Both the position numbers and the translations under genes were made by a program. A stretch of 30,631 nt of DNA from a virus: positions 1-30,631 of the IMG/VR virus record IMGVR_UViG_3300027833_001225, one strand, 5' to 3'. Positions 2,564 through 30,631 of this stretch are shown here, one piece after another (the first letter of the stretch is position 1; each line of letters opens with the position of its first letter). Below the pieces are notes generated by a model that worked only from the letters and a program-made list of their open reading frames with translations, was not told the origin of the DNA and made no database searches.

Positions 2564-2791
2564 TTCGTTGTTTCCGCTAGAACCTGATTTGGCTTGATTA
2601 TATTTATTGAGTGTTTTAATTAGCAGGTCTCTATCCATAGGTGGAATAAACCATGCTTCGGACCATGAAACTGCACCTTCACTGTATATTACTAATTCAG
2701 CGATATTTTTGTTTAGGGCAGTTTGATCATCTTTGAGCTTACCTAGGTACGCCACTACGTCCGCTGGTTCAGACTGTGCTAGGAAGCTGTG
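2555..2791 (-). CDS. -1 frame extension of the gp26-type gene
   Basis: The frame is open from inside the 3' end of the upstream gp26-type gene to a TAG at 2555. Read as a -1 frameshift product it adds 78 residues beginning HSFLAQSEPADVV and continuing into AYLGKLKDDQTALNKN. The only candidate initiation codon is a GTG at 2755 with no good ribosome site. A start there would give 66 aa. The frame stays open across the gp26 stop and back to the slippery site, as expected for a frameshift extension. The sequence is rich in polar helix-forming residues, with conserved-looking WSEAWFIPP. The layout resembles the frameshifted tail assembly chaperones (lambda G/GT, P2 E/E') of other tailed phages. 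It could also be a separate small gene. Confidence 0.65.
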   Translation of the reverse strand, partial: HSFLAQSEPADVVAYLGKLKDDQTALNKNIAELVIYSEGAVSWSEAWFIPPMDRDLLIKTLNKYNQAKSGSSGNNELL

Positions 2792-2797
2792 AAAAAA
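2736..2797 (-). promoter_or_regulatory. Programmed -1 frameshift signal
   Basis: On the minus strand the gp26 frame reads through T TTT TTC (2797-2791), a classic X XXY YYZ heptamer. The gp26 stop TAG lies ten bases further on (2781-2779). The next bases form a stem in which AGCTTCCTAG (2788-2779) pairs with CTAGG-T-AAGCT (2746-2736): ten base pairs with one bulged base. The spacer is only about two bases, shorter than usual, but outer pairs could open. After slippage both Phe codons re-pair and reading enters the open -1 frame. Confidence 0.65.
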
Positions 2798-3648
2798 TTT
2801 ACAGGATCAAAGTTTACACGACTTTCGAACACTACTGGTTCGCCTGCATCGTCTGTACATTTCTCACACTGTAGTTTCATCTCATGATTAATACCAATGG
2901 AATTCAATTGAGAAATTTGTTCTTCGATCTTCTTACCTACTTTACCTTCGGCATTATCTAAAAACTCTGAGATATGCTTTCTATCTGTTACACTTTGCTT
3001 CTCGCCTTCTTCATCGGTGTAACCAATACTAGAAATACTATCAACAATTAAACTAAAGTTTAAATCTGCAATTTGTTTAAAGTTATCATTAAACAATCTT
3101 AATCTTTCCATTTCATCAGATACTTCTGCTAATGCTTGTAAACTTCTAGTGCTTTGGAAATTAGTAATACCTGCTTGGATTGTGCTGGCATAAGTGAACG
3201 GACGAACTTTAATTTCTAGACCTTCATGCTCTACTGTGTATGATTTTTCTAGAACACCCATGGAGCCAATTGCTTGTTCAACACTAGCAACACCTTGTTG
3301 ATCTTCTTTACACGTCGGACATGGCGCAGTTACTTCTACTTCGTCTCCGTAAGTAGCACCCTGTACAGCAACTAGTAATACGTCAATATCACTGCTTAAC
3401 ATTGCTCTAGCATTCTTTACGTTAGGTACGCAACTTTGAATAACCTGTGCTACAGCTTCGCCGTTTAATAACGCATCAGGGTTTTTCATAATCATTTCGT
3501 CTTTTGCTGTCATTGCAAAGACAGGAAGTTCTAGCGTTTCGGGCATCTCTACTACTGCCGACTCATAAAATTTGCCAGCACTTGGAATAGGTGCAAACAA
3601 TTTTGGAGCTCTAAAATGCGAACTTAATGGATTGTGTTTGTTTGTCAT
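2779..3648 (-). CDS. 26: T4 gp26-type baseplate/tail assembly protein
   Basis: A 289-aa protein of the T4 baseplate hub gp26 type. Two CxxC pairs, CPTC (about residue 110) and CEKC (about 260), can form a zinc ribbon. The middle has the long helical stretch typical of the family (ITNFQSTRSLQALAEV then FNDNFKQIADLNFSLIVDSI). T4 gp26 takes part in assembly of the baseplate hub. Here the gene is alone on the minus strand, divergent from the 2OG oxygenase gene, with a late promoter at 3706-3713. Its 3' end carries a slippery site that would extend about 286 residues by 78 in the -1 frame, giving a 364-aa product. This protein is longer than T4 gp26 (about 208 aa). Confidence 0.75.
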   Translation of the reverse strand: MTNKHNPLSSHFRAPKLFAPIPSAGKFYESAVVEMPETLELPVFAMTAKDEMIMKNPDALLNGEAVAQVIQSCVPNVKNARAMLSSDIDVLLVAVQGATYGDEVEVTAPCPTCKEDQQGVASVEQAIGSMGVLEKSYTVEHEGLEIKVRPFTYASTIQAGITNFQSTRSLQALAEVSDEMERLRLFNDNFKQIADLNFSLIVDSISSIGYTDEEGEKQSVTDRKHISEFLDNAEGKVGKKIEEQISQLNSIGINHEMKLQCEKCTDDAGEPVVFESRVNFDPVNFFTAS

Positions 3649-3705
3649 ATTGTTTTATCCTAAATTTGTACTAGCACATTATGTACTATTACTTCTTTAA
3701 CTACA

Positions 3706-3713
3706 TATTTATC
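3706..3713 (-). promoter_or_regulatory. T4-like late promoter for gp26-type gene
   Basis: The minus strand reads GATAAATA, 58 bp upstream of the ATG. It lies back to back with a plus-strand TATAAATA 19 bp away, so the two face opposite directions from one short region. Confidence 0.6.
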
Positions 3714-3731
3714 GGTATTATTAACTAGGGT

Positions 3732-3739
3732 TATAAATA
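3732..3739 (+). promoter_or_regulatory. T4-like late promoter TATAAATA
   Basis: An exact match to the T4 late promoter core, with the ATG of the 2OG oxygenase-like gene 17 bp downstream. A second similar box (GGTAAATA) begins about 12 bases further on. Confidence 0.65.
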
Positions 3740-3755
3740 TCCGGTAAATATCAAT

Positions 3756-4325
3756 ATGAAACAAGAAGATTACTTTGCTAAAATAAAAGTAGATGCTACT
3801 AATCTCATAGATAGTTGTAATAAATGGATGACTCAATTTCCTGACTTGATTTATTCATACAGAACAGATTCTGACACATTAGTAGATGTAGCAGATACGC
3901 CCGATAAGGAGTTTGATAAATCGTTCAGAACATTTGATATGTGGCACCCTGAATTAGATTATACTCTTGCTAGTAACACTTTTTTAAAAAAGTTACACAA
4001 AAAATTCCCTATCAATAATATTGCAATAAACAATTTTCATCCAAACTTTTATTATAGGTTACACACTGATTGGAGAAGAGGTGTAGCAATAAACATGCTA
4101 ATAGCAGGCACAGATAGTCATTGTTTATTTGTAGACGATACACATTTTATAGAATTAGACTACAAGCCTGGTGAGATGTATTTGTTTAATACACAAAAGC
4201 CTCATACTATTACAAACTTCTCTGAGCAACGTACACTGTTTTCTATACAGTTTGTAGAAGGTAAAGATACGTTATCATATGATATGATATATGACTATTT
4301 AAAAAATAACGGGCTAGTAGATTGA
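3756..4325 (+). CDS. 2OG-Fe(II) oxygenase-like protein
   Basis: A 189-aa protein with the double-stranded beta-helix iron site: H103-T-D105 (RLHTDWRRG), distal H150 in a PGEMYLFNTQKPH stretch, and R159, which can hold 2-oxoglutarate. These enzymes use O2, Fe(II) and 2-oxoglutarate to hydroxylate proteins or small molecules in the cytoplasm. Members of this type are common auxiliary genes in T4-like marine phages, usually with unknown substrate. The start is an ATG just after a late promoter; there is little room for a strong ribosome site. Its stop overlaps the TTG start of the HD-domain oxygenase gene, so the two are probably made together. Confidence 0.7.
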   Translation: MKQEDYFAKIKVDATNLIDSCNKWMTQFPDLIYSYRTDSDTLVDVADTPDKEFDKSFRTFDMWHPELDYTLASNTFLKKLHKKFPINNIAINNFHPNFYYRLHTDWRRGVAINMLIAGTDSHCLFVDDTHFIELDYKPGEMYLFNTQKPHTITNFSEQRTLFSIQFVEGKDTLSYDMIYDYLKNNGLVD

Positions 4326-4858
4326 AATTAACAAACTTTAAAAACTTTCAAGAAAGCACAGCCAGGGACTGGCAGTTAATTGCTAAGGTCTATAAAAAGG
4401 ACAAAAAGAAACTTGTTAATAAATTTGTAGAACAATTAAAGTTATTAGAAGGCGACTTTGGTGGCTTTCCTATTTGTAGATACGAACATTGCTTACAAAC
4501 AGCAACAAGAGCATATCGGGCTGGCGAAGATGACGAATATATTGCAGTTGCATTATTGCACGATATAGGCGATACACTTAGCCCTGATAACCATGGCGAA
4601 GTTATAGGTGCTATGTTAAAACAATATATCAGCGAAGAAAACTATTTTTTACTAGTACATCACACTGATTTTCAAGGATACTACTATTACCAGCATATAG
4701 GTAAATCACGTGACCTACGTGATAAGTTCAAAGATAGTCCTCATTACGAACACACCGAACGGTTTTGCAGACTGTATGATAGTCAAAGTTTTGACGATTT
4801 GTATGAGTCAGAGTCGCTAGAGTTCTTTATTCCGTATATTACAAAACTCCTTAATTAA
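4322..4858 (+). CDS. PhnZ-like HD-domain protein
   Basis: A 178-aa protein starting with TTG at 4322, overlapping the stop of the 2OG gene. The metal ligands expected for the PhnZ/MIOX-type diiron oxygenases are present in order: H56 (YEHCLQ), H80-D81 (ALLHDIGD), H91, H113/H114 (LVHHTDF) and D153 (CRLYDSQ). The block from EH-LQ-A through ALLHD-G closely resembles the phosphonate oxygenase PhnZ as I remember it. PhnZ cleaves a hydroxylated phosphonate made by the 2OG enzyme PhnY, which makes the pairing here suggestive. An ordinary HD phosphohydrolase is the main alternative. The usual PhnZ Tyr/Glu gating pair could not be placed with certainty. Confidence 0.7.
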   Translation: MKLTNFKNFQESTARDWQLIAKVYKKDKKKLVNKFVEQLKLLEGDFGGFPICRYEHCLQTATRAYRAGEDDEYIAVALLHDIGDTLSPDNHGEVIGAMLKQYISEENYFLLVHHTDFQGYYYYQHIGKSRDLRDKFKDSPHYEHTERFCRLYDSQSFDDLYESESLEFFIPYITKLLN

Positions 4859-4869
4859 AACTCGAGTTT
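4858..4869. other. Perfect 12-bp palindrome
   Basis: AAACTCGAGTTT lies directly over the end of the HD-domain gene. It has no spacer loop and no T tract, so it is more likely a DNA-level symmetric site or chance than a terminator. Confidence 0.35.
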
Positions 4870-4877
4870 ATAATTCA

Positions 4878-4885
4878 GGTAAATA
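4878..4885 (+). promoter_or_regulatory. Weak late promoter before tape measure
   Basis: GGTAAATA precedes the ATG of the tape-measure-like gene by 23 bp. It shares TAAATA with the stronger boxes in this window but lacks the usual A at the second base. Confidence 0.4.
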
Positions 4886-4908
4886 CATGCAGTAAGAGAG
4901 GATACTGA

Positions 4909-7900
4909 ATGTCAAGGGTACAACTGCCGGATGGCGGAGAAGCAATAATTGCAGATTTTGCACTAGAAAGCACAGCTCAGATGATGCTGGCGCAACTAGC
5001 ACAACTCAATGGCAATAAAGACTGGAAACTGTTAGTTGACCACGCTAAAAATAATGCAAAAGATCAAGAAACATTCCACAAATCCACACTCGAACATCAG
5101 AAAAAACTACTAGGCGAATTTGAGGATTTAGCTGACGAAGTTGAAAAGAGTAATAAAAAAGGAACTCCCCTACCGGCACCCACAGTTGGCAATGCTGGAC
5201 CCGGGCCTGCTCAAATAGGTAAAGCGGCAGATGGTGCCGCAGCTTCACTAGACAGTTTTAACAAAGGTGCTGCTAGGGGCGAAAAAATCTTTGCTGGCGT
5301 ATATGGTGCAACTGCATCAGCAATCAAAGGTATAGCAACGTCTATTGTAGTCTACGGTGGAATACTTATAGACACATTTACTGGTTTAGGTGATGAACTA
5401 AATGAGATGACAAAAGTTGGTGTAGGATTCACCGACAGTGTAGGCCAAGGTGGCATGAGTGCCACAAGTGCTATGATGTCATTGAGTAGCATGGGTATAG
5501 ATGCTGCAGGCACATTAAAGAACTTGAGTGGTGTTGTTCAAACAATGAGCAAGAAATCGTTCACAGAATTTACAGGTGCATTCATGGACGCAACTAACAG
5601 TGGTGTAGAGCTAGGCATGAGTCTAGACGACAGTGTTGAGCGTATGGGTGCAGAATTAAGAAAAAGGCAAGCAATGGGTGTTGCCGACGGCATGAATCAA
5701 GCCAGGATGAATGCACAAATTACCAAGACTATCAAGACACAACAAAAATATGCAAGTGTACTTGGTGAGAGTGTCGACGAGATAGTTAATTTTACAGACA
5801 GTTTAATACAGCAAACACCAGTACTTACTTCTAGTTTATTAAGGATGGACAGAGAATTAAGAGGTAAAGTTATATCAGGTATAACAGACTTTGCTGGCAC
5901 TATGAGAGCTATGGGCGGAGAAGCCGGTGGTGACATAGCGGCTGCTATGACAGAGGCTGCTGCAAGTGGACAATTAGGATTTAGTCAATCCATGGTTGGG
6001 TATGTTACAGCATTACCTAGTTTACAAGGCCCAATGAATAATTATATTGAGGCAATTAAGAATGGCACACTGAGTCAAGAAGATGCTGAGCAAATGGCAC
6101 TAGACATGACTTCACAGTTGGGTAATCTCAGTAAAGCAGAAAAAGATAGAATATTCTTGCTAGACAGAGCTGGCAATGCACAGGCTGCTAGTATGGCAAA
6201 GGCTATTACACAGTTCGAAGCATCTGCTAAAAAGTTAAAAGACCTAGGTCCAGGCTTAGAAATGGAAGGTGTGCAAAAAGGTTCCAACACATTAGCAAAA
6301 ATAATGAAGCAGATCACTGGTTCGTTTGAAGGTATAAAAACTGGCTTCCTACAAGGATTTGGTAATATCACCGACGGCGGCAAAGGGTTAAGCGATACTT
6401 TCGAAAAAATGAAAAAGACCGTTATGACTTCTATTAGTATAGCAATGAAGAAATTTGGTTTAGTCGGCGGCGTATTTGATGAAATGTCCGGCGCTGGAAT
6501 TAGTTTAGGCGAACAGTTAGGTAAAAAATTACCTGGCATGTTAGAAACGTTTGCAGAATATGTAGGCATGGCTATAGAAGCGTTACCGGGTATTTGGGAA
6601 GGTATTAAAAGTTTTATAAATGTTATGAAGACAGTTGGTAGCATACTAGGTGTAGTTATGAAAATAGTCTCCGGTGCTGTTACTATAGCAACTAATGCTT
6701 TCAATGCACTCTTCTCGCCTATTGATGCAGTAGCAAGTATATTTACTAAAGTTGATGGCGAAACTACAGGCTTCCTAGCAACACTTGGTAAACTAGCAGG
6801 TCTTACAGGATTAGTAGTACTTGGATTTAAAGCAGTAAGCGGTGTGCTAGGCCTCTTTGGTAAATCAATGCCAGCAATGTTTGCTAACATGGGCAAGTCT
6901 TTAATGTCCGGTGCTAAGAACATGATGGGCAAAGTCACAGGTGGTCTAAGCAAAGCAACAGGTGGAAAACTTGACGGCTTATTTGGTAAAGCCAAAGACA
7001 AGATAGCAGGCAAATCAAAAGAAATGGACATGGGCTCAAAAGCCATGGACACTGCAAGTAAGAAATCCAAGAGCTTTACAAAAACATTATCAACAGGCAT
7101 GAAAGATATATCCAAAGGTATATCTAGTACGCTAACAAATTTAAGCAAAGGTATTAGCAACTCTGTAAGCAATATTGCAACAGGCATACAAAAAGGTATA
7201 AGTGCATTATCAAAAGGTATTGCAGACGCAGGTAAAGGTATTGGAGCAGGCATTGGCGGCTTATTAAAAGGAACATTAACAGGTTTAGGGCAAGGTTTAA
7301 AAGTATTAGGTGATCCTAAAGCATTACTAGGCACAGTAGTACTAGCGGCACTAGGTGGTGCAATGTTTATTGCAGGTAAAGCATTCCAGCAGTTTGCAGA
7401 TATTAATTGGGCAGGTGTTGGCGCAGGAGCATTAGCATTAGGTGTATTAGGTGTAGCGGCAGCGTTAATAGCACCTATATCACCATTATTAATCACAGGT
7501 GCAGTAGCAATTGGTGCATTAGGCTTAGCACTTGTTCCGTTTGCTTATGCTGTAAGTTTAGCGGCACCAGCAATGGTTGAGCTAATGGGCAGCTTTAAAC
7601 TGCTCAACGAAGTTGATCCTAAAAATGTATTATTGTTAGGCCCAGCACTAGTATCACTAGCAGCCGGTATGGCTGCATTTAGTGCAGGTGGGTTAGTAGG
7701 CGGCATACTAGATGGATTAGGCAGTTTGCTTGGGCAAGACTCGCCATTTGATAAACTTGCTAAAATAGGAGCAGCAGCTCCGGCAATTAATGAAATGACA
7801 TCAAACATGGGTTCGTTTGGTACCACAGTAGAAACATTCAATGATGCAATGGAACAATTAGATGGCGCAGCTATTAAAGGTTCGTTTGAGACAATGGCAG

Positions 7901-8763
7901 AAGGCATTGACACACTAAATGCATCGATGGCTGAGATTAGTCTTGTTTCAATAATGAAAATGGCTGCTATGAAGTCATTTGGTCCTATAGCAGAAGAGCC
8001 AGCAACAGAGCCAGCAGAGCCAACCGAAGCTGAGAAGCCTAAACTTACAGACAAAGATTATGTAATGGCACGAGCAGGCGACCCAGACGCACAGGCTAGA
8101 GTTGATGCAGGCCAGACGCAGGAACAAAAAGATGAAAGAGCTAAATTTGATAAGTCTATACCAGGGCAAATACTAGCCGACACAGGCACAGACGAGAATC
8201 CATTCGCAGTGCCATTAGAGCAAGCAAAGGAATCATTAAATACAGCAATAGCGGCACAGGCAGCAGGCCTCAGGGAAGGCGTTGACTGGATAGATCAAAT
8301 GAATCTAGATAATAGTGTTAAATGGGCACAAATGGATTTAGATGACGCAACTAAGCTAGACAAAGAAGCAGCAACGAAAAAAGATAACAGTGCAGAAATA
8401 AAAACACCAGAAAAATCAAAGATTGATAGATCGCCTGCAGGTAGAGCTCAAAGACGTCAAGATCAGTTGAACAAGAAGAAGGAACAACTCCCAGAAGGTC
8501 AAACCTCAGCCACATTTGTTAACGGAAAACCAGTAAAACCAGTAGCAGCCAAGACTAATCAACCAGCACAGGCAAATGTAGCAATGGCTGCAGAAACTCC
8601 TAAAGATGCTAACAAGAAGGCTGCAGAAGGCACTGACGATTCTAGCACTAAGACAGAATCAAATAAAGAATTGTTCGAACGTATGGTTAAAAATCAAGAA
8701 CAAACTAACAAACTACTCAAATCAGGCAACAGACTTACTAGCGATCTAAGCGACGATTTCTAA
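4909..8763 (+). CDS. Tail tape-measure-like protein
   Basis: A 1284-aa protein. The N-terminal 90 residues are helical and charged. A predicted membrane-like segment lies near 139-157 and further hydrophobic stretches near 560-640. A Lys/Gly/Ser-rich repetitive section follows (about 660-790, with repeats such as KGIS and SKGI), then a very hydrophobic Ala/Gly/Leu block (about 800-910). The C-terminal 280 residues are polar, rich in Glu, Lys and Ala. This long helical and hydrophobic make-up is typical of tail tape-measure proteins, which set tail length and enter the host envelope. It occupies the neighbourhood of the gp26-type chaperone candidate. T4's own counterpart is gp29; direct homology is not visible by eye. 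The ATG follows an AGAGAGGA box. Confidence 0.6.
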   Translation: MSRVQLPDGGEAIIADFALESTAQMMLAQLAQLNGNKDWKLLVDHAKNNAKDQETFHKSTLEHQKKLLGEFEDLADEVEKSNKKGTPLPAPTVGNAGPGPAQIGKAADGAAASLDSFNKGAARGEKIFAGVYGATASAIKGIATSIVVYGGILIDTFTGLGDELNEMTKVGVGFTDSVGQGGMSATSAMMSLSSMGIDAAGTLKNLSGVVQTMSKKSFTEFTGAFMDATNSGVELGMSLDDSVERMGAELRKRQAMGVADGMNQARMNAQITKTIKTQQKYASVLGESVDEIVNFTDSLIQQTPVLTSSLLRMDRELRGKVISGITDFAGTMRAMGGEAGGDIAAAMTEAAASGQLGFSQSMVGYVTALPSLQGPMNNYIEAIKNGTLSQEDAEQMALDMTSQLGNLSKAEKDRIFLLDRAGNAQAASMAKAITQFEASAKKLKDLGPGLEMEGVQKGSNTLAKIMKQITGSFEGIKTGFLQGFGNITDGGKGLSDTFEKMKKTVMTSISIAMKKFGLVGGVFDEMSGAGISLGEQLGKKLPGMLETFAEYVGMAIEALPGIWEGIKSFINVMKTVGSILGVVMKIVSGAVTIATNAFNALFSPIDAVASIFTKVDGETTGFLATLGKLAGLTGLVVLGFKAVSGVLGLFGKSMPAMFANMGKSLMSGAKNMMGKVTGGLSKATGGKLDGLFGKAKDKIAGKSKEMDMGSKAMDTASKKSKSFTKTLSTGMKDISKGISSTLTNLSKGISNSVSNIATGIQKGISALSKGIADAGKGIGAGIGGLLKGTLTGLGQGLKVLGDPKALLGTVVLAALGGAMFIAGKAFQQFADINWAGVGAGALALGVLGVAAALIAPISPLLITGAVAIGALGLALVPFAYAVSLAAPAMVELMGSFKLLNEVDPKNVLLLGPALVSLAAGMAAFSAGGLVGGILDGLGSLLGQDSPFDKLAKIGAAAPAINEMTSNMGSFGTTVETFNDAMEQLDGAAIKGSFETMAEGIDTLNASMAEISLVSIMKMAAMKSFGPIAEEPATEPAEPTEAEKPKLTDKDYVMARAGDPDAQARVDAGQTQEQKDERAKFDKSIPGQILADTGTDENPFAVPLEQAKESLNTAIAAQAAGLREGVDWIDQMNLDNSVKWAQMDLDDATKLDKEAATKKDNSAEIKTPEKSKIDRSPAGRAQRRQDQLNKKKEQLPEGQTSATFVNGKPVKPVAAKTNQPAQANVAMAAETPKDANKKAAEGTDDSSTKTESNKELFERMVKNQEQTNKLLKSGNRLTSDLSDDF

Positions 8764-14836: not shown

Positions 14837-15484
14837 ATGAAAACTTTATTCAATATAGAGAATGGATTCAAAGCACTAGTAATTATACTATTGTCGATGA
14901 TCGCATTCAATGCCGATGCGGCAAAATGGAGCGGAGAAGCAGGTTATGCAAATGACTATGTATTCCGTGGAATATCTCAAACTCAAGGCGCAAGTTCTGC
15001 TTTCGGATCTATTGATTTAGATTTAGAGAACGGTATTAATGCTGGTGTTTGGGTAGGTCAAGTAGACTTTTCTGGTAGCGATGCTAGTGAAGAAATCTAC
15101 TCTTACATTTCATATAGCAAAACTTTAAGTGATGCTGTATCTGTAAGCGTAGGCTACGGTGATTACACATACGCAGGAGATTCAAGTTTAAATGGATCCG
15201 AGCAGTATATTTCCGTTAATGTAAAAGACTTCGGTCTTACACATGTAATGGGTAATGACACCTACAACGATTATACAAGACTAAGTTATACTGGTTTTGA
15301 TATTGTTGATATAGCATATGGCATGCAAGACGGTGTTGGAGACAATTTAATGTTTTTTAGATCTTTTGATTTACCTTTTGGTGGATTAGAAGGTTCAGTA
15401 GCATATATTGACTTCACTGCTGATGACAGCAGTTTACTACAGGACGAAGACCAGTTTGTCTTTGCTGTAAGTAAATCATTCTAA
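14837..15484 (+). CDS. Outer-membrane porin-like protein (TorF/Gcw_chp family)
   Basis: A 215-aa protein with a signal peptide ending ...MIAFNADA, then the mature start AKWSGEAGYANDYVFRGISQT, the hallmark of the Gcw_chp/TorF putative porin family. Alternating beta-strand sequence runs to a C-terminal Phe (VFAVSKSF), the usual signal for the outer-membrane assembly machinery. An AGGAGG site lies 6 bp before the ATG. The gene stands alone between two strong terminators with its own sigma-70 promoter, a cassette layout typical of a moron. A role in changing the host surface (superinfection exclusion, receptor masking, nutrient uptake) is inference. Confidence 0.8.
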   Translation: MKTLFNIENGFKALVIILLSMIAFNADAAKWSGEAGYANDYVFRGISQTQGASSAFGSIDLDLENGINAGVWVGQVDFSGSDASEEIYSYISYSKTLSDAVSVSVGYGDYTYAGDSSLNGSEQYISVNVKDFGLTHVMGNDTYNDYTRLSYTGFDIVDIAYGMQDGVGDNLMFFRSFDLPFGGLEGSVAYIDFTADDSSLLQDEDQFVFAVSKSF

Positions 15485-26207: not shown

Positions 26208-26510
26208 ATGGAAGAGATTGTCAACGCAATAAACGACTATGGATTCCCAGTAGTAATGAGTGTTGGCCTAGGATATTTTGTGTATTACATTTGGTGGTTT
26301 ATTGGAGAAAAGATAGACCCAGCATTAGAAGAAATGCACATGGCTTTAATTAAAGTAATAGATAAAACTCGCATGCTAGATCAAGACTTGATCAGACTAC
26401 AACAAAAAGTAAATGTCGTATTAGAATATAAAGCAAAAGAACAAATTATTAAGGACGCACAGAACACAGAGCTTTTAAAAAACATAGAGGAAGGATTAAC
26501 ACATGATTGA
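26208..26510 (+). CDS. Second small membrane-anchored coiled-coil protein
   Basis: A 100-aa protein with a membrane segment at about residues 13-33 (FPVVMSVGLGYFVYYIWWFIG), followed by a long charged helix. It resembles the 98-aa protein in length, an M-x-EI start, a G-x-P before the membrane segment and a helical tail. It overlaps the csgF start by eight bases (ATGATTGA). It may assist export, form a holin-like pore or anchor the curli apparatus to the inner membrane; none of these can be chosen from sequence. Confidence 0.6.
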   Translation: MEEIVNAINDYGFPVVMSVGLGYFVYYIWWFIGEKIDPALEEMHMALIKVIDKTRMLDQDLIRLQQKVNVVLEYKAKEQIIKDAQNTELLKNIEEGLTHD

Positions 26511-27027
26511 TAACAAACACAAAGATACACCTTTACTAGTTTTAGGTTATATCTTGTTAGGTATGATAGTACTGCTATCTACTACCGCAACTGCAGATTC
26601 ATTAACGCACAAATTTAAGAATCCTAGTTTTAGTGGTATTGGAACTGGAGCACATTACCTAACGATAGAAAATCAAGAAAGAACTCGTAGGCAAAAGATC
26701 AAAGACGATATTGAATCAGCTTTAAAGCAAGCAGAACGAGAAGACTCGAACAGCACAATTAACAAATTCATTAGAAATTTAGAGAGCAGAATATACGCCC
26801 AAATCTCTAAGGGATTAGTTGACAGCATGTTTTGTGATCCAGCTACTGTAGTAGAGTGTACGGGTTCAGACTCAGGCGACTTTACAATTGAAGGTAATAA
26901 TGTAAGTTACCAAATAGTTATATCTGACGATGGATTAGAAGTAATGAGACTTACTATTGTTTCTCCAGACGGCACAATAACTGAGATAGAGATACCGATC
27001 GGCATCGGCAGCATTGGCGGCGGGTAA
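26503..27027 (+). CDS. csgF: CsgF-like curli assembly protein
   Basis: A 174-aa protein with an N-terminal signal/anchor (LLVLGYILLGMIVLLSTTATA). The predicted mature start DSLTHKFKNPSFSG matches the CsgF signature (E. coli FQFRNPNFGG), the segment that plugs into the CsgG pore. The C-terminal beta part (YQIVISDDGLEVMRLTIVSPDG) also fits CsgF. In curli systems CsgF couples the secretion pore to nucleation of the fibre. The middle is longer than in E. coli CsgF (138 aa) and includes a charged helix. The residue matching E. coli N17 is Thr or a gap. It directly precedes csgG with TAATG overlap. Confidence 0.85.
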   Translation: MIDNKHKDTPLLVLGYILLGMIVLLSTTATADSLTHKFKNPSFSGIGTGAHYLTIENQERTRRQKIKDDIESALKQAEREDSNSTINKFIRNLESRIYAQISKGLVDSMFCDPATVVECTGSDSGDFTIEGNNVSYQIVISDDGLEVMRLTIVSPDGTITEIEIPIGIGSIGGG

Positions 27028-27980
27028 TGATGAAGTATTTAGGAATCGCACTTCTATGTGTAGGCTTCTTGTCAGGCTGTGCAAGCATGGCTCTACCTGG
27101 CGACAAAAACTGCACCACTGATTTCCTCCAATGCATCGAAGAACCAAAAGAAGTAGAATTACCTACATTCAAAAAATTACGACAGTTACCACCGGCTGAA
27201 ACAAGACCGATTGTAGCAGTTTATCAATTTGCCGACTTAACTGGACAACGTTTAAGTTCTGGCGGAGCGGCTAGTTTTAGCACAGCCGTAACACAAGGTG
27301 CTAAAGCCTTACTAATAGACGCACTCAAAGCAGCAGGCGCTGATTCAGACCCGCAGGGTACTTGGTTCAGAGTTGTTGAAAGAGGTCTGGGTCTAGACAA
27401 TCTTGTCCGAGAGCGACAAATAATTCGTAGCACACGTGATAGTTATGCTACTGAGAAAGCTCCGCCACAAGATGTACAACCATTATTATTTGCAGGAGTG
27501 ATACTAGAGGGTGGCGTTATTGGCTACGACTCTAATATTGAGACTGGCGGTAACGGTGCTCGATACCTAGGTATTGGCACAACTAATGAATATAGGCGTG
27601 ACAGTGTTGTAGTTTCGCTTAGAGCAGTTAGTGTACTTACTGGCGAAGTGATATTAAACGTACAGACATACAAAACTATTCTCAGTGTTGGGATGGGTGG
27701 TGACGTATTTAAATTCCTTGATATGGATACGCGACTACTTGAAATTGAGAGTGGTATGACAGAGAATGAAAGTGTAACTTGGGGTGTTAGATCAGCGATC
27801 GAAGCAGCCGTTTATGCTCTCATCGAACAAGGAGATGAAAGAGGTTTCTGGAAAATAAACTACCCATTAGAGTTGGGTAACACTACAACAGGTACTATCG
27901 ACGGTACTGACACAGATTTAGAAACGGGTAATGAGCCCTCTGATAGCCAATTGGCTTTAGAGGATAATGAGAATGATTAA
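27027..27980 (+). CDS. csgG: CsgG-like curli secretion pore lipoprotein
   Basis: A 317-aa protein with a lipobox LSGC at residues 15-18. CsgG landmarks include VAVYQFADLTGQ, FSTAVTQGAKALLIDAL, the ERGLGLDNLVRERQIIR helix, the GGVIGYDSNIETGGNGARYLGIG strand region, TGEVILNVQTYKTILS and the SAIEAAVYALIEQGDERGFW helix. CsgG forms the nonameric outer-membrane channel for curlin export. The constriction loop differs from E. coli: the YPASNF motif is replaced by roughly GGAASF, keeping Phe56 but not Tyr51 or Asn55. The last 35 residues are an acidic Thr/Asp/Glu tail. ATG at 27030 is an equally good start. Confidence 0.92.
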   Translation: MMKYLGIALLCVGFLSGCASMALPGDKNCTTDFLQCIEEPKEVELPTFKKLRQLPPAETRPIVAVYQFADLTGQRLSSGGAASFSTAVTQGAKALLIDALKAAGADSDPQGTWFRVVERGLGLDNLVRERQIIRSTRDSYATEKAPPQDVQPLLFAGVILEGGVIGYDSNIETGGNGARYLGIGTTNEYRRDSVVVSLRAVSVLTGEVILNVQTYKTILSVGMGGDVFKFLDMDTRLLEIESGMTENESVTWGVRSAIEAAVYALIEQGDERGFWKINYPLELGNTTTGTIDGTDTDLETGNEPSDSQLALEDNEND

Positions 27981-27999
27981 TCATAAAATGGAGAATAAA

Positions 28000-28797
28000 A
28001 TGAAGACTTTTTCGAGCAAGTTATTTGCAGGTGTCTTCGCTACGGTTTGCTTTTTTACTGGTAATTTAGCTAGTGCTGATAATGAAGTATTGATCGATCA
28101 AATAGGTGACAACTTAACTTTAACTGTGTTACAAGCCGGTTATGGAAACAGTTTGTCCGGCGATACAAGTCAGGGAACTGATCTAACTTTAACAGGTGGA
28201 TCATTAATCATTGACCTTATACAAGATGGTAATCTTAACGAAACTTTTGGTTCGTGGGTACTTGACGGTTCGGGTTCAAGTGTGATTGACTTATATTTCC
28301 AAGGCGATAGTAATATTTGGGATATGAATATTGGTGCTACAGGCAGTGGTGACTATACTGACATCTTATCAAACATAATAGGTTCTAGTAACTTATTTGA
28401 TATAGATATTGGTGGAAACGCAGTTGCTGAAAGTACAAATATGGATCTTTACATACTAGGTGATAGAAATGACTTTTCAACAAGTTTTACTAACAGCAAA
28501 GTATGGGCAGCAGGTGGTTCAGTTAATAATAGTACTGGTACACAGACCATGGCAGGCATAGTTATAGATTCAAGCAACAATATTTGGAACTTTGATGTTA
28601 CAGGCGACGACAATGCATTCGCAACAAAACAGGCAAGCAATGACGGTAATAGCATGACAGTAGAACTCATGGGTTCAGATGGAGACTTCCAGCTGATACA
28701 GAACATGACATCTACATGTACACCAGCATGTGCTGGAGTTATCAATTTAGATATTGATAGTGAAAATGCATCAGTCAGTGTTGTTCAGCAAGACTAA
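28000..28797 (+). CDS. Curlin-repeat protein (CsgA/CsgB-like)
   Basis: A 265-aa protein from the ATG at 28000, chosen because a GGAG box lies 6 bp upstream and the signal peptide then fits (MKTFSSKLFAGVFATVCFF...LASA). An in-frame start at 27967 exists but adds an unlikely leader. The mature part has degenerate curlin repeats of the Q-x-G-x-N type: LIDQIGDNLTLTVLQAGYGN, LIQDGNLN, YFQGDSN, ILGDRND, VTGDDNAF, LMGSDGDFQLIQ. It ends SVSVVQQD. Curlins are secreted through CsgG and self-assemble into amyloid fibres. The spacing and length are less regular than E. coli CsgA (151 aa), so fibre formation is inference. Confidence 0.8.
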   Translation: MKTFSSKLFAGVFATVCFFTGNLASADNEVLIDQIGDNLTLTVLQAGYGNSLSGDTSQGTDLTLTGGSLIIDLIQDGNLNETFGSWVLDGSGSSVIDLYFQGDSNIWDMNIGATGSGDYTDILSNIIGSSNLFDIDIGGNAVAESTNMDLYILGDRNDFSTSFTNSKVWAAGGSVNNSTGTQTMAGIVIDSSNNIWNFDVTGDDNAFATKQASNDGNSMTVELMGSDGDFQLIQNMTSTCTPACAGVINLDIDSENASVSVVQQD

Positions 28798-29938
28798 GTG
28801 GCTTTTGCTACTTAGTTGCATTGCAACAAGTTCAATAAATGCCGCTGAAAATATCGGCGGCATACTTGAACAATCTGGTTCCGTAGGTAAAATATCTAGA
28901 ACAACTGGAGAAACTTTACAAGCAGAATTACAGACAGACATTGTTAGTATGGACGAGGTAGAAACTGCTAACGGTAGATTAAAGATTAAATTTATAGACG
29001 ATACGCAAGTTAGTCTAACAGAAAATACATACATGGAAATTAACGAGTATGTGTTTGACCCAGACCCTAATAAAAGCAGGATGGCTTTAAATTTTGTGTC
29101 AGGAACAGCAAGATTTGCAACAGGCGGATTAGGACTTGTAGCAAGAGAGAATATAACAATACAAACTCCCACAGCCAGTATAGGCATAAGGGGAACAGAT
29201 TTTACTACCACAGTTGATGAACTAGGTAGAAGTTTGGTAATATTATTACCAGACGAAGATTGCACAGATAGAGTAGCACTAGAAGAAGGGTGTGCTCCGA
29301 GTGGAAGTATAACAGTTACTAACGCAGGTGGTACGCAAGTATTAGACGAAGCGTACCAAGCAGTAATGGTAAGCACATTTGAAACTATACCTACTGCACC
29401 TGTTAAACTAGTAAACTTAGATTTAAATATGATAGACAATATGTTTATTGTAAGTGAGCCAGCAGAAATTACCGAAGCAGAAGAAGAGCAAGCATCAGAA
29501 TTAAAAGGCGGTGGCGGAATGCTAGACTTTGACGGACTAGATCAAGACTTTTTAGATACTGCTACACTAGATGATAATACAGCAAACAATTATGAATTTA
29601 GCGAATTAGACATTGACTTTTTAGATGTAGAATTCTTAAACGATTTGCTAGATGTGCTAAGTGATGATATAGATTCACTAGCAGAAGAAAATACAGCCGC
29701 AGGTGGTGATAGACTAATTGGAACAAAGTTCGGTAACGATCCAGAGACACAGTTTAATACATTTCCTGACTATGATGGCAAAGTGTTTTTTCTTAGACAA
29801 GTTGGAAACAAAGTAGGAATAAAATTAGCACAAGGTGCAAAGGCACGAATTACTATATATGACGATGATACAGGAGAAACTTTGTTATGCTTGAACAGTT
29901 GTGATGGCGTATACATAAGTATTACACAAAATGATTAA
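28766..29938 (+). CDS. Exported FecR-domain protein
   Basis: A 390-aa protein. The ATG at 28766 lies in the last 32 bases of the curlin gene and is followed by a signal peptide (SKTKWLLLLSCIATSSINA). Residues of about 25-170 carry a FecR-type domain: GSVGKISRTTGETLQ, NGRLKIKFIDDTQVSLTENTYMEINEY, and ENITIQTPTASIGIRGTDFTTTV. The rest is acidic, with repeated DFLDT/DFLDVEFLND-like elements, and a C-terminal beta domain with two Cys. FecR domains occur in envelope signalling and in exported structural proteins. A sensor, anchor or cap of the curlin fibre is possible; the operon position between two curlins favours an extracellular role. Confidence 0.75.
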   Translation: MHQSVLFSKTKWLLLLSCIATSSINAAENIGGILEQSGSVGKISRTTGETLQAELQTDIVSMDEVETANGRLKIKFIDDTQVSLTENTYMEINEYVFDPDPNKSRMALNFVSGTARFATGGLGLVARENITIQTPTASIGIRGTDFTTTVDELGRSLVILLPDEDCTDRVALEEGCAPSGSITVTNAGGTQVLDEAYQAVMVSTFETIPTAPVKLVNLDLNMIDNMFIVSEPAEITEAEEEQASELKGGGGMLDFDGLDQDFLDTATLDDNTANNYEFSELDIDFLDVEFLNDLLDVLSDDIDSLAEENTAAGGDRLIGTKFGNDPETQFNTFPDYDGKVFFLRQVGNKVGIKLAQGAKARITIYDDDTGETLLCLNSCDGVYISITQND

Positions 29939-30631
29939 GAACATATTAAATAAAATAACAGGTACGCATCTAGGAATACTAGTTATAGTAATGTTCTTTA
30001 CAGCACAGGCATGTTATGCACAAGACAATGTACTAACAATGACTCAGCAAGGGGACAATGTTATTATAGACGTTTTACAAGCAGGATACAATAACAGTAT
30101 AGATGTTGATTTAGGATTAAGTGGATTTGATGCCAGCAATGAATTTGAAGTAAAACAAGACGGCAATGACAACGATGTCTTTTTAAGTATAGGCGGAAAT
30201 ACTAACAGTCTAATTTTTTATCAGAAAGGTGCTAAAAACACAATCGGCTGGACAGACACTTGGGGTAGCGGATTAAATTGGGGTGGAGACTTAGACGGTG
30301 ATAATAACAATATTATGATTAAACAGTACACTGACACTGGTAAAAATATAGCAGATAACTACTTTGGCTTCCACATACAAGGCGATAATAATAATGTAAA
30401 AGGTGGACAAGGCTATTTCATAAACAGTAACACAGGTTCTTATAGCCAAGGACAAGGGTGGGGTGATAATTATATGAGATTAGATATCCATGGTGATAGC
30501 AATGATGTAATAACCACACAAAGAACTGATGCCGCAAATAATGGAGCAACAGCCTATGTAAATGTGTACGCAGATCTCAATGATTTGTATGTGCAACAAC
30601 GACAAGGCGCTCACACATTAAACTTAACTAT
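29931..30631 (+). CDS. Second curlin-repeat protein, 3' end missing
   Basis: ATG at 29931 overlaps the FecR gene stop (ATGATTAA), the same join type as at csgF. A signal peptide (GILVIVMFFTAQACYA) is followed by curlin-type repeats: MTQQGDNVIIDVLQAGYNNSIDV, VKQDGNDND, IGGNTNSLIFYQKGAKNTI, IQGDNNNVKG, IHGDSNDVITTQ, YVQQRQGAH. The repeats match the Q-x-G-x-N pattern better than those of the first curlin, with more Asn, so this may be the main subunit and the first the nucleator, or the reverse. The frame is still open at the window end after 233 codons. Confidence 0.82.
   Translation, partial: MIKNILNKITGTHLGILVIVMFFTAQACYAQDNVLTMTQQGDNVIIDVLQAGYNNSIDVDLGLSGFDASNEFEVKQDGNDNDVFLSIGGNTNSLIFYQKGAKNTIGWTDTWGSGLNWGGDLDGDNNNIMIKQYTDTGKNIADNYFGFHIQGDNNNVKGGQGYFINSNTGSYSQGQGWGDNYMRLDIHGDSNDVITTQRTDAANNGATAYVNVYADLNDLYVQQRQGAHTLNLT

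Follow-up and report, generated by a model that had tools for sequence, protein, structure and literature searches.

Most HD-domain proteins are phosphohydrolases, and the three known HD oxygenases are PhnZ, TmpB and MIOX (myo-inositol oxygenase), as set out in the sections of a 2020 paper drawn on here (PMC8177086). PhnZ is the 2-aminoethylphosphonate oxygenase that works with PhnY, and TmpB works with TmpA in the 2-(trimethylammonio)ethylphosphonate pathway; both act in tandem with a 2OG hydroxylase, and the same sections describe no 2OG partner for MIOX (PMC8177086). PhnZ and TmpB carry a YxxE gate loop (Y24/E27 of PhnZ), the Tyr of which caps the second iron while the Glu meets the substrate amine (PMC8177086). 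In the section of a virome paper cited here, phnZ is named among viral genes (PMC11018836).

The locus described below, from a large T4-like phage, comprises a small 2OG-Fe(II)-type oxygenase gene that overlaps the gene for an HD protein with the PhnZ/TmpB/MIOX fold. The original prediction read the two as a PhnZ-type pair that could plausibly perform a phosphonate-type two-step oxidation in phosphate-poor ocean water. The fold class was read correctly, and the coupling to a 2OG gene is likewise borne out; the phosphonate chemistry, judged by the gate, a lysine conserved in PhnZ-type proteins and the family to which the HD protein belongs, is most likely wrong.

Organization and conservation of the gene pair

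The analyzed stretch, here called the window, comprises 30,631 bases and derives from a T4-like phage, with a T4 portal protein (PF07230, 1.6e-112), a Gp23 capsid protein (1.3e-97) and a prohead protease (6.8e-25). The best relatives of the portal protein are found in jumbo phages of Pseudomonas (54–56% identity, records of 284–288 kb), followed by Agrobacterium phage Atu_ph07 (48% identity, 490 kb), so that the hosts of the nearest named phages by this protein are Pseudomonas and Agrobacterium, and the ocean setting of the original prediction is conjectural.

The 2OG gene (3756–4325, plus strand, ATG start) encodes 189 residues and was recognized from the list of open reading frames, its HxD...H...R motif and its AF2 fold; the HD gene (4322–4858, plus strand, TTG start) encodes 178 residues and was recognized from its ligand set, profile matches and AF2 fold. 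As originally predicted, the stop of the first overlaps the start of the second. The junction reads ...GAT TGA / TTG AAA..., with the TGA stop at 4323–4325 and the TTG start at 4322–4324, giving a four-base overlap, TTGA (4322–4325, plus strand), for which translational coupling is predicted. The TTG start is supported by the homologue in contig L002, whose ATG start aligns with it. To the left of the pair lies a T4-type baseplate protein gene (2779–3648, minus strand; PF12322, 6.7e-18; phrog_150), and to its right a long ORF (4909–8763, plus strand) that appears tape-measure-like from its length and composition. A promoter scan of 3600–5000 gave about as many promoter-like sites as shuffled sequence would (6 vs 6.4 expected), and a terminator scan of the same region gave two overlapping terminator-like sites on the opposite strand, within the HD gene.

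The same two genes occupy the same slot, between the same baseplate gene and long ORF, in three related contigs (L001, L002 and L007), with identities to the window of 97, 74 and 52% for the HD protein and 92, 49 and 40% for the 2OG protein, respectively. The genes overlap in all four paired contigs, although the junction takes three forms: the window and L001 share TTGA, L007 has ATGA, and in L002 the overlap spans 14 bases. Both are under purifying selection in the comparison of the window with L001 (dN/dS of 0.048 for HD and 0.08 for 2OG). Because the four contigs have their surrounding genes and slot in common, they possibly reflect one acquisition and not repeated selection for pairing.

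The 2OG protein belongs to a phage family with varied neighbors

The 2OG protein has the HxD...H...R motif as H103, D105, H150 and R159 (codons 4062–4064, 4068–4070, 4203–4205 and 4230–4232), all invariant in 19/19 phage homologues. Its AF2 model (pLDDT 85.4) retrieves oxygenases with the double-stranded beta-helix (DSBH) fold at Z 10–12 among the VIA matches listed, with near-ties between a nucleoside-antibiotic hydroxylase (7v4m, 12.0), ALKBH7, AlkB, AspH, PHD2 and P4H. Cpz10-type, AlkB/ALKBH7, AspH and P4H enzymes share the DSBH fold and the HxD..H..R motif with it at this level, but without significant sequence similarity. On the basis of the model, we assign the protein to a small AlkB/AspH/P4H-like phage family. 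Since the model ties among many families, no substrate can be read from the fold; with hydroxylases of proteins and nucleic acids among its closest folds, to propose a small-molecule substrate is to guess.

Profile searches agree with the original prediction that this protein does not resemble PhnY. It has no Pfam match at E ≤ 0.1 and no match to PhyH or TauD at E ≤ 1, and PhyH and TauD are absent from the five Pfam families matched by its 19 homologues at E ≤ 0.1. Two of the 19 match PF13640 (best E 0.0035), which the window protein itself does not. The partner 2OG enzymes of the phosphonate HD oxygenases are of the PhyH or TauD type. The phrog_274 profile ('DNA endonuclease V') matches residues 67–172 at 4.2e-6, a label that is doubtful and may be wrong for this family. 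Among named phages there was no match for the window protein or for two of its homologues, and a profile that recovers 19/21 virus control records found the family in 0/190 alphaproteobacterial genomes. Two tandem overlapping copies of the family occur in each of L043 (44–1175) and L045 (4364–5501).

A scan of viral sequences found 32 loci of the 2OG family, the L001, L002 and L007 contigs accounting for three; neighbors were varied in the 15 loci viewed, and 17 of 19 2OG-bearing virus records, all fragments, have no detectable HD gene (2/19 have one). Conversely, viral scans gave six phage contigs with an HD gene of the type found here, the window included and a 22-residue fragment match in L121 left out of the count. 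The 2OG gene lies directly upstream of the HD gene in four of the six; in the fragments L008 and L009, the 2OG family of the window was not detected by profile, and L008 has other 2OG-type genes (PF13640, 5.9e-16; PF13759, 1e-15). This distribution invites the reading that the two genes are unlinked cargo, the 2OG enzyme acting, in the manner of small AspH/P4H/AlkB-like enzymes, on a macromolecule (nucleic acid, or a protein of the phage or its host) and the HD protein being a separate oxygenase or hydrolase, with a common transcript and no common pathway. The many phages that have the 2OG gene beside unrelated genes, the HD copies that lack it and the fold neighbors AlkB, ALKBH7, AspH, P4H and PHD2 speak for this reading, whereas the stop/start overlap that persists in four contigs and three junction forms, down to 52% HD identity, speaks against it, as does the circumstance that the best-known partners of PhnZ-fold oxygenases, as presented in those sections of PMC8177086, are 2OG hydroxylases. 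We consider independent roles possible, on the unlikely side.

Fold and metal ligands of the HD protein

The H, HD, H, H, D ligand set named in the original prediction is present as H56, H80-D81, H91, H114 and D153, and is invariant in 42/42 rows of a family alignment (5 phage and 37 cellular rows, 41 of them distinct, with L001 omitted as 97% identical to the window). Pfam gives only the general HD family (4.7e-7). The best NCBIfam match is TIGR03276 Phn-HD (1.7e-8), which at 34.2 bits lies far below its cut-off of 214.6; TmpB (27.2 bits) and HMP dioxygenase (22.2 bits) fall equally short of theirs (300 each). The local similarity to PhnZ that had been noted is real, and in a single-sequence search of the PDB covers residues 42–88 only (E 1.7e-4). 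With a 12-row family profile the PDB search returned PhnZ (1.4e-8) and TmpB (1.3e-6), then MIOX (0.099), and hhalign against 20 PhnZ-type proteins gave an E value of 4.9e-17 across residues 30–177.

The AF2 model (pLDDT 90.6) is closest to the same three enzymes: VIA matched it to PhnZ with Z 18.0 (rmsd 3.1, 154 aligned), to TmpB with Z 17.1 (rmsd 2.9, 153 aligned) and to MIOX with Z 12.8 (rmsd 3.1, 140 aligned), all other chains among the matches listed having Z ≤ 8.5. Foldseek gave ten matches at E ≤ 0.001, every one PhnZ or TmpB; BFVD held no match to the model at E ≤ 0.001, an absence that carries no weight. As profile and VIA both put PhnZ, TmpB and MIOX on top, and Foldseek agrees, the HD protein falls into the fold group of the known HD oxygenases, and a grouping with ordinary HD hydrolases is not favored. 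From its ligands and modeled fold, the HD protein would be a diiron enzyme with an iron cofactor, and it is likely to be an oxygenase rather than a hydrolase.

A competing reading of these data takes the HD protein, in spite of its fold, for a metal-dependent phosphohydrolase such as a nucleotidase, with the pair serving during infection to adjust nucleotide pools or modified nucleotides. Most HD-domain proteins are of this kind, Pfam places the protein no more narrowly than the general family, and the YxxE oxygenase gate is absent, as described below; MIOX, which shares the ligand set with the HD protein, also lacks the YxxE loop. Against a hydrolase stand the fold and profile rankings, in both of which every hydrolase comes clearly below PhnZ, TmpB and MIOX, and the dinuclear set of six ligands that never varies in the family. 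Such an activity is, in our judgment, rather improbable.

The HD protein lacks the gate and lysine of PhnZ

Although the fold is shared with PhnZ, the substrate-gripping positions are not. Alignments and column counts place residues F46-G47-G48-F49 (codons 4457–4468, plus strand) where PhnZ has its YxxE gate loop, with F49 the equivalent of E27. The gate Glu position is occupied by F in 33, Y in 7 and L in 2 of the 42 family rows, and by Glu in 0/42; the gate Tyr position, F46 in the window, holds Y in 3/42, and G48, just before the Glu position, is invariant. The 20 PhnZ-type rows have the gate Tyr in 20/20 and a nearby Glu in 18/20 (by eye). The original prediction had singled out these Tyr/Glu gating residues as needed for PhnZ chemistry, and they are missing from the HD protein.

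A second difference concerns Q118 (codon 4673–4675, plus strand), four residues after H114, where PhnZ-type proteins have the invariant Lys of HVxAK. Column counts at this position give Q in 41/42, T in 1/42 and K in 0/42 family rows, compared with K in 20/20 Phn-HD rows. The LSxxSxx[ST]LxxQGG motif, present in 20/20 Phn-HD rows, is absent from the window HD protein by inspection. According to the PhnZ structure paper, the HVxAK lysine and a Ser/Gln loop reportedly bind the phosphonate. In the positions by which PhnZ grips amine and phosphonate, the family instead conserves aromatic and amide residues (F49, F117, Q118 and Y120–Y123). The residues that follow the HD dyad also differ, with HDxGD in 40/42 family rows (HDIGD in the window) and HDxGH in the PhnZ-type rows. 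The more distant phage HD copies in L008 (1251–1790) and L009 (1226–1768) have HDIGK in place of HDIGD; MIOX has HDIGK after its metal dyad. MIOX, moreover, is much longer than the HD protein, to which it has no significant sequence match (E 0.099).

In a maximum-likelihood tree, the 20 PhnZ-type rows split from the 42 rows of the family, which we call GG[FY] after its loop, with 100/100 support, and the HD protein thus lies outside the PhnZ-type clade. In the same tree, the phage rows form one clade (99/95) nested within the cellular, alphaproteobacterial family; the family rows are from Alphaproteobacteria and phage only, and the donor lineage is judged within that sample. On these alignments, the HD protein belongs to a separate bacterial GG[FY] family, apart from Phn-HD. 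As the residues with which PhnZ grips its substrate are missing, with aromatic and amide residues in their stead, and the family is a separate one, the HD protein probably has a non-phosphonate substrate.

These findings weigh directly on the proposal of a phosphonate-degrading pair like PhnY/PhnZ or TmpA/TmpB. The resemblance is genuine in that, among solved structures, PhnZ and TmpB come closest, with the same H..HD..H..H..D ligand set and two-gene arrangement, Phn-HD is the best NCBIfam match and a 2OG gene lies directly upstream. However, neither the gate nor the phosphonate-type residues of PhnZ and TmpB are present, the scores fall below both family cut-offs, the clade is distinct and the 2OG partner is neither PhyH- nor TauD-like. 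Together, the gate, the lysine, the family cut-off, the tree and the type of partner lead us to reject phosphonate degradation as very improbable, and we suggest that gate residues be checked before 'phnZ-like' calls in viromes are taken to signify phosphonate use. The GG[FY] family appears instead as a sister branch of the known HD oxygenases in which the metal site is intact and the gate is different.

Cellular relatives of the HD protein

The seven nearest cellular members of the GG[FY] family match the HD protein over its full length at 44–50% identity, with the GG[FY] and FQGYY motifs and the metal ligands in common. Counted by hand, 55 of 190 alphaproteobacterial genomes contain 66 places that match at 133 bits or more, nearly all at full length; the next match scores 45.8 bits, and places below 46 bits were not taken as members. 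PhnZ-type proteins of the same 190 genomes match the family profile in a short stretch only. Among 299 sampled Pseudomonadota genomes, 40 have a family match at E ≤ 1e-20.

The genes of the nearest cellular clade adjoin zinc-type dehydrogenases, a TPP enzyme, NUDIX and an acyl-CoA synthetase-like protein (the last by eye), and other cellular members have varied neighbors that include metabolic genes. A Pfam tally of 88 neighbors, taken from 22 of 27 cellular loci (L011, L012, L015, L102 and L116 were omitted as near-duplicates by eye), gave zinc-binding dehydrogenase domains 12 times, NUDIX five times, and amidase, acyl-CoA dehydrogenase and class II aldolase three times each. Phosphonate families were not among the first 25 of the 98 Pfam families in this tally, from which a lone phosphonate gene could have escaped, and phosphonate genes were not seen next to any of the 27 cellular relatives in the parts of the neighborhoods viewed, a further point against a phosphonate pathway. 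The cellular neighbors point, weakly, to varied carbon metabolism over phosphonate use. The phage copies differ from the cellular ones in their setting, as the phage 2OG family was not seen beside any cellular GG[FY] copy; in one cellular locus, L103, a same-strand 2OG-FeII_Oxy_5 gene closely precedes the HD gene.

Bacterial fusions of HD and 2OG domains, which would have linked the two activities, were also considered. The 13 candidate regions, mostly picked for their long open frames, have the HD domain in 13/13, with no fused 2OG domain recognized, and by eye their N-terminal extensions look like out-of-frame high-GC sequence. In named phages, the sole HD match was a weak one in Curtobacterium phage Pippin15 (23.5% identity, E 5e-4), near which no 2OG gene is annotated. 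In open-license papers, searched by title and the start of the abstract, we found no characterization of the GG[FY] family, no biochemical data on its members and no phage 2OG-HD pair.

Proposed function of the pair

The reading we favor, tentatively and at somewhat under an even chance, is that the pair forms a coupled two-step oxygenase module of a 2OG enzyme and a diiron HD enzyme, carried by one T4-like lineage and probably directed at a non-phosphonate substrate. PhnY/PhnZ and TmpA/TmpB likewise pair a 2OG gene with one of the PhnZ fold, which suggests the same logic of hydroxylation followed by cleavage, and by this analogy it is plausible that both enzymes serve one pathway. The two proteins would be translated together, coupled through the overlap; the 2OG enzyme would add a hydroxyl group, most likely to a small carbon compound, in which the bond beside the new hydroxyl would then be cleaved with O2 by the HD enzyme at its Fe(II)/Fe(III) pair. 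Several points tell against such a module: a fold alone is no proof of function, most records of the 2OG family have no detectable HD gene, two HD-bearing fragments lack that family, and the four paired contigs may go back to one acquisition.

A more specific version, in which the GG[FY] HD diiron oxygenase cleaves a C–C or C–N bond of the 2OG-hydroxylated substrate in a phage tandem pathway, is conceivable and correspondingly doubtful. If true, it would be a new reaction for the GG[FY] branch of the fold, and a bacteriophage would carry a diiron HD oxygenase. The phage GG[FY] HD protein and its 2OG partner offer a defined two-enzyme system with which the chemistry of the family can be tested.

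Other features of the window

Several further genes of the window merit description. A SegE-type GIY-YIG endonuclease is encoded at 40–402 (PF19835, 9.7e-29). The ORF at 1025–2308 encodes a putatively secreted protein of 427 residues with an N-terminal CxxCH cytochrome-c-like part (a weak match, under the Pfam cut-off) and His-rich motifs that, by eye, recall copper monooxygenases; it is kept in the same slot in L001 and L002, with a dN/dS of 0.075 against L001. A Gcw_chp outer-membrane or porin-like protein (14837–15484; PF09694, 4.4e-11) adjoins the phage capsid gene.

Toward the end of the window, a curli-type cluster (26503–30629) contains CsgF (PF10614, 3.3e-12), CsgG (PF03783, 5.8e-45) and FecR (PF04773, 1.8e-10). 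Pelagimyophages have already been reported to carry CsgF/CsgG clusters, without recognizable CsgA/CsgB according to the sections of the report cited here (PMC7029224). Two ORFs of the window cluster (27967–28797 and 29931 to the end) have no Pfam match and show curlin-like repeats by eye; they could be the subunits that are missing from the pelagimyophage clusters.
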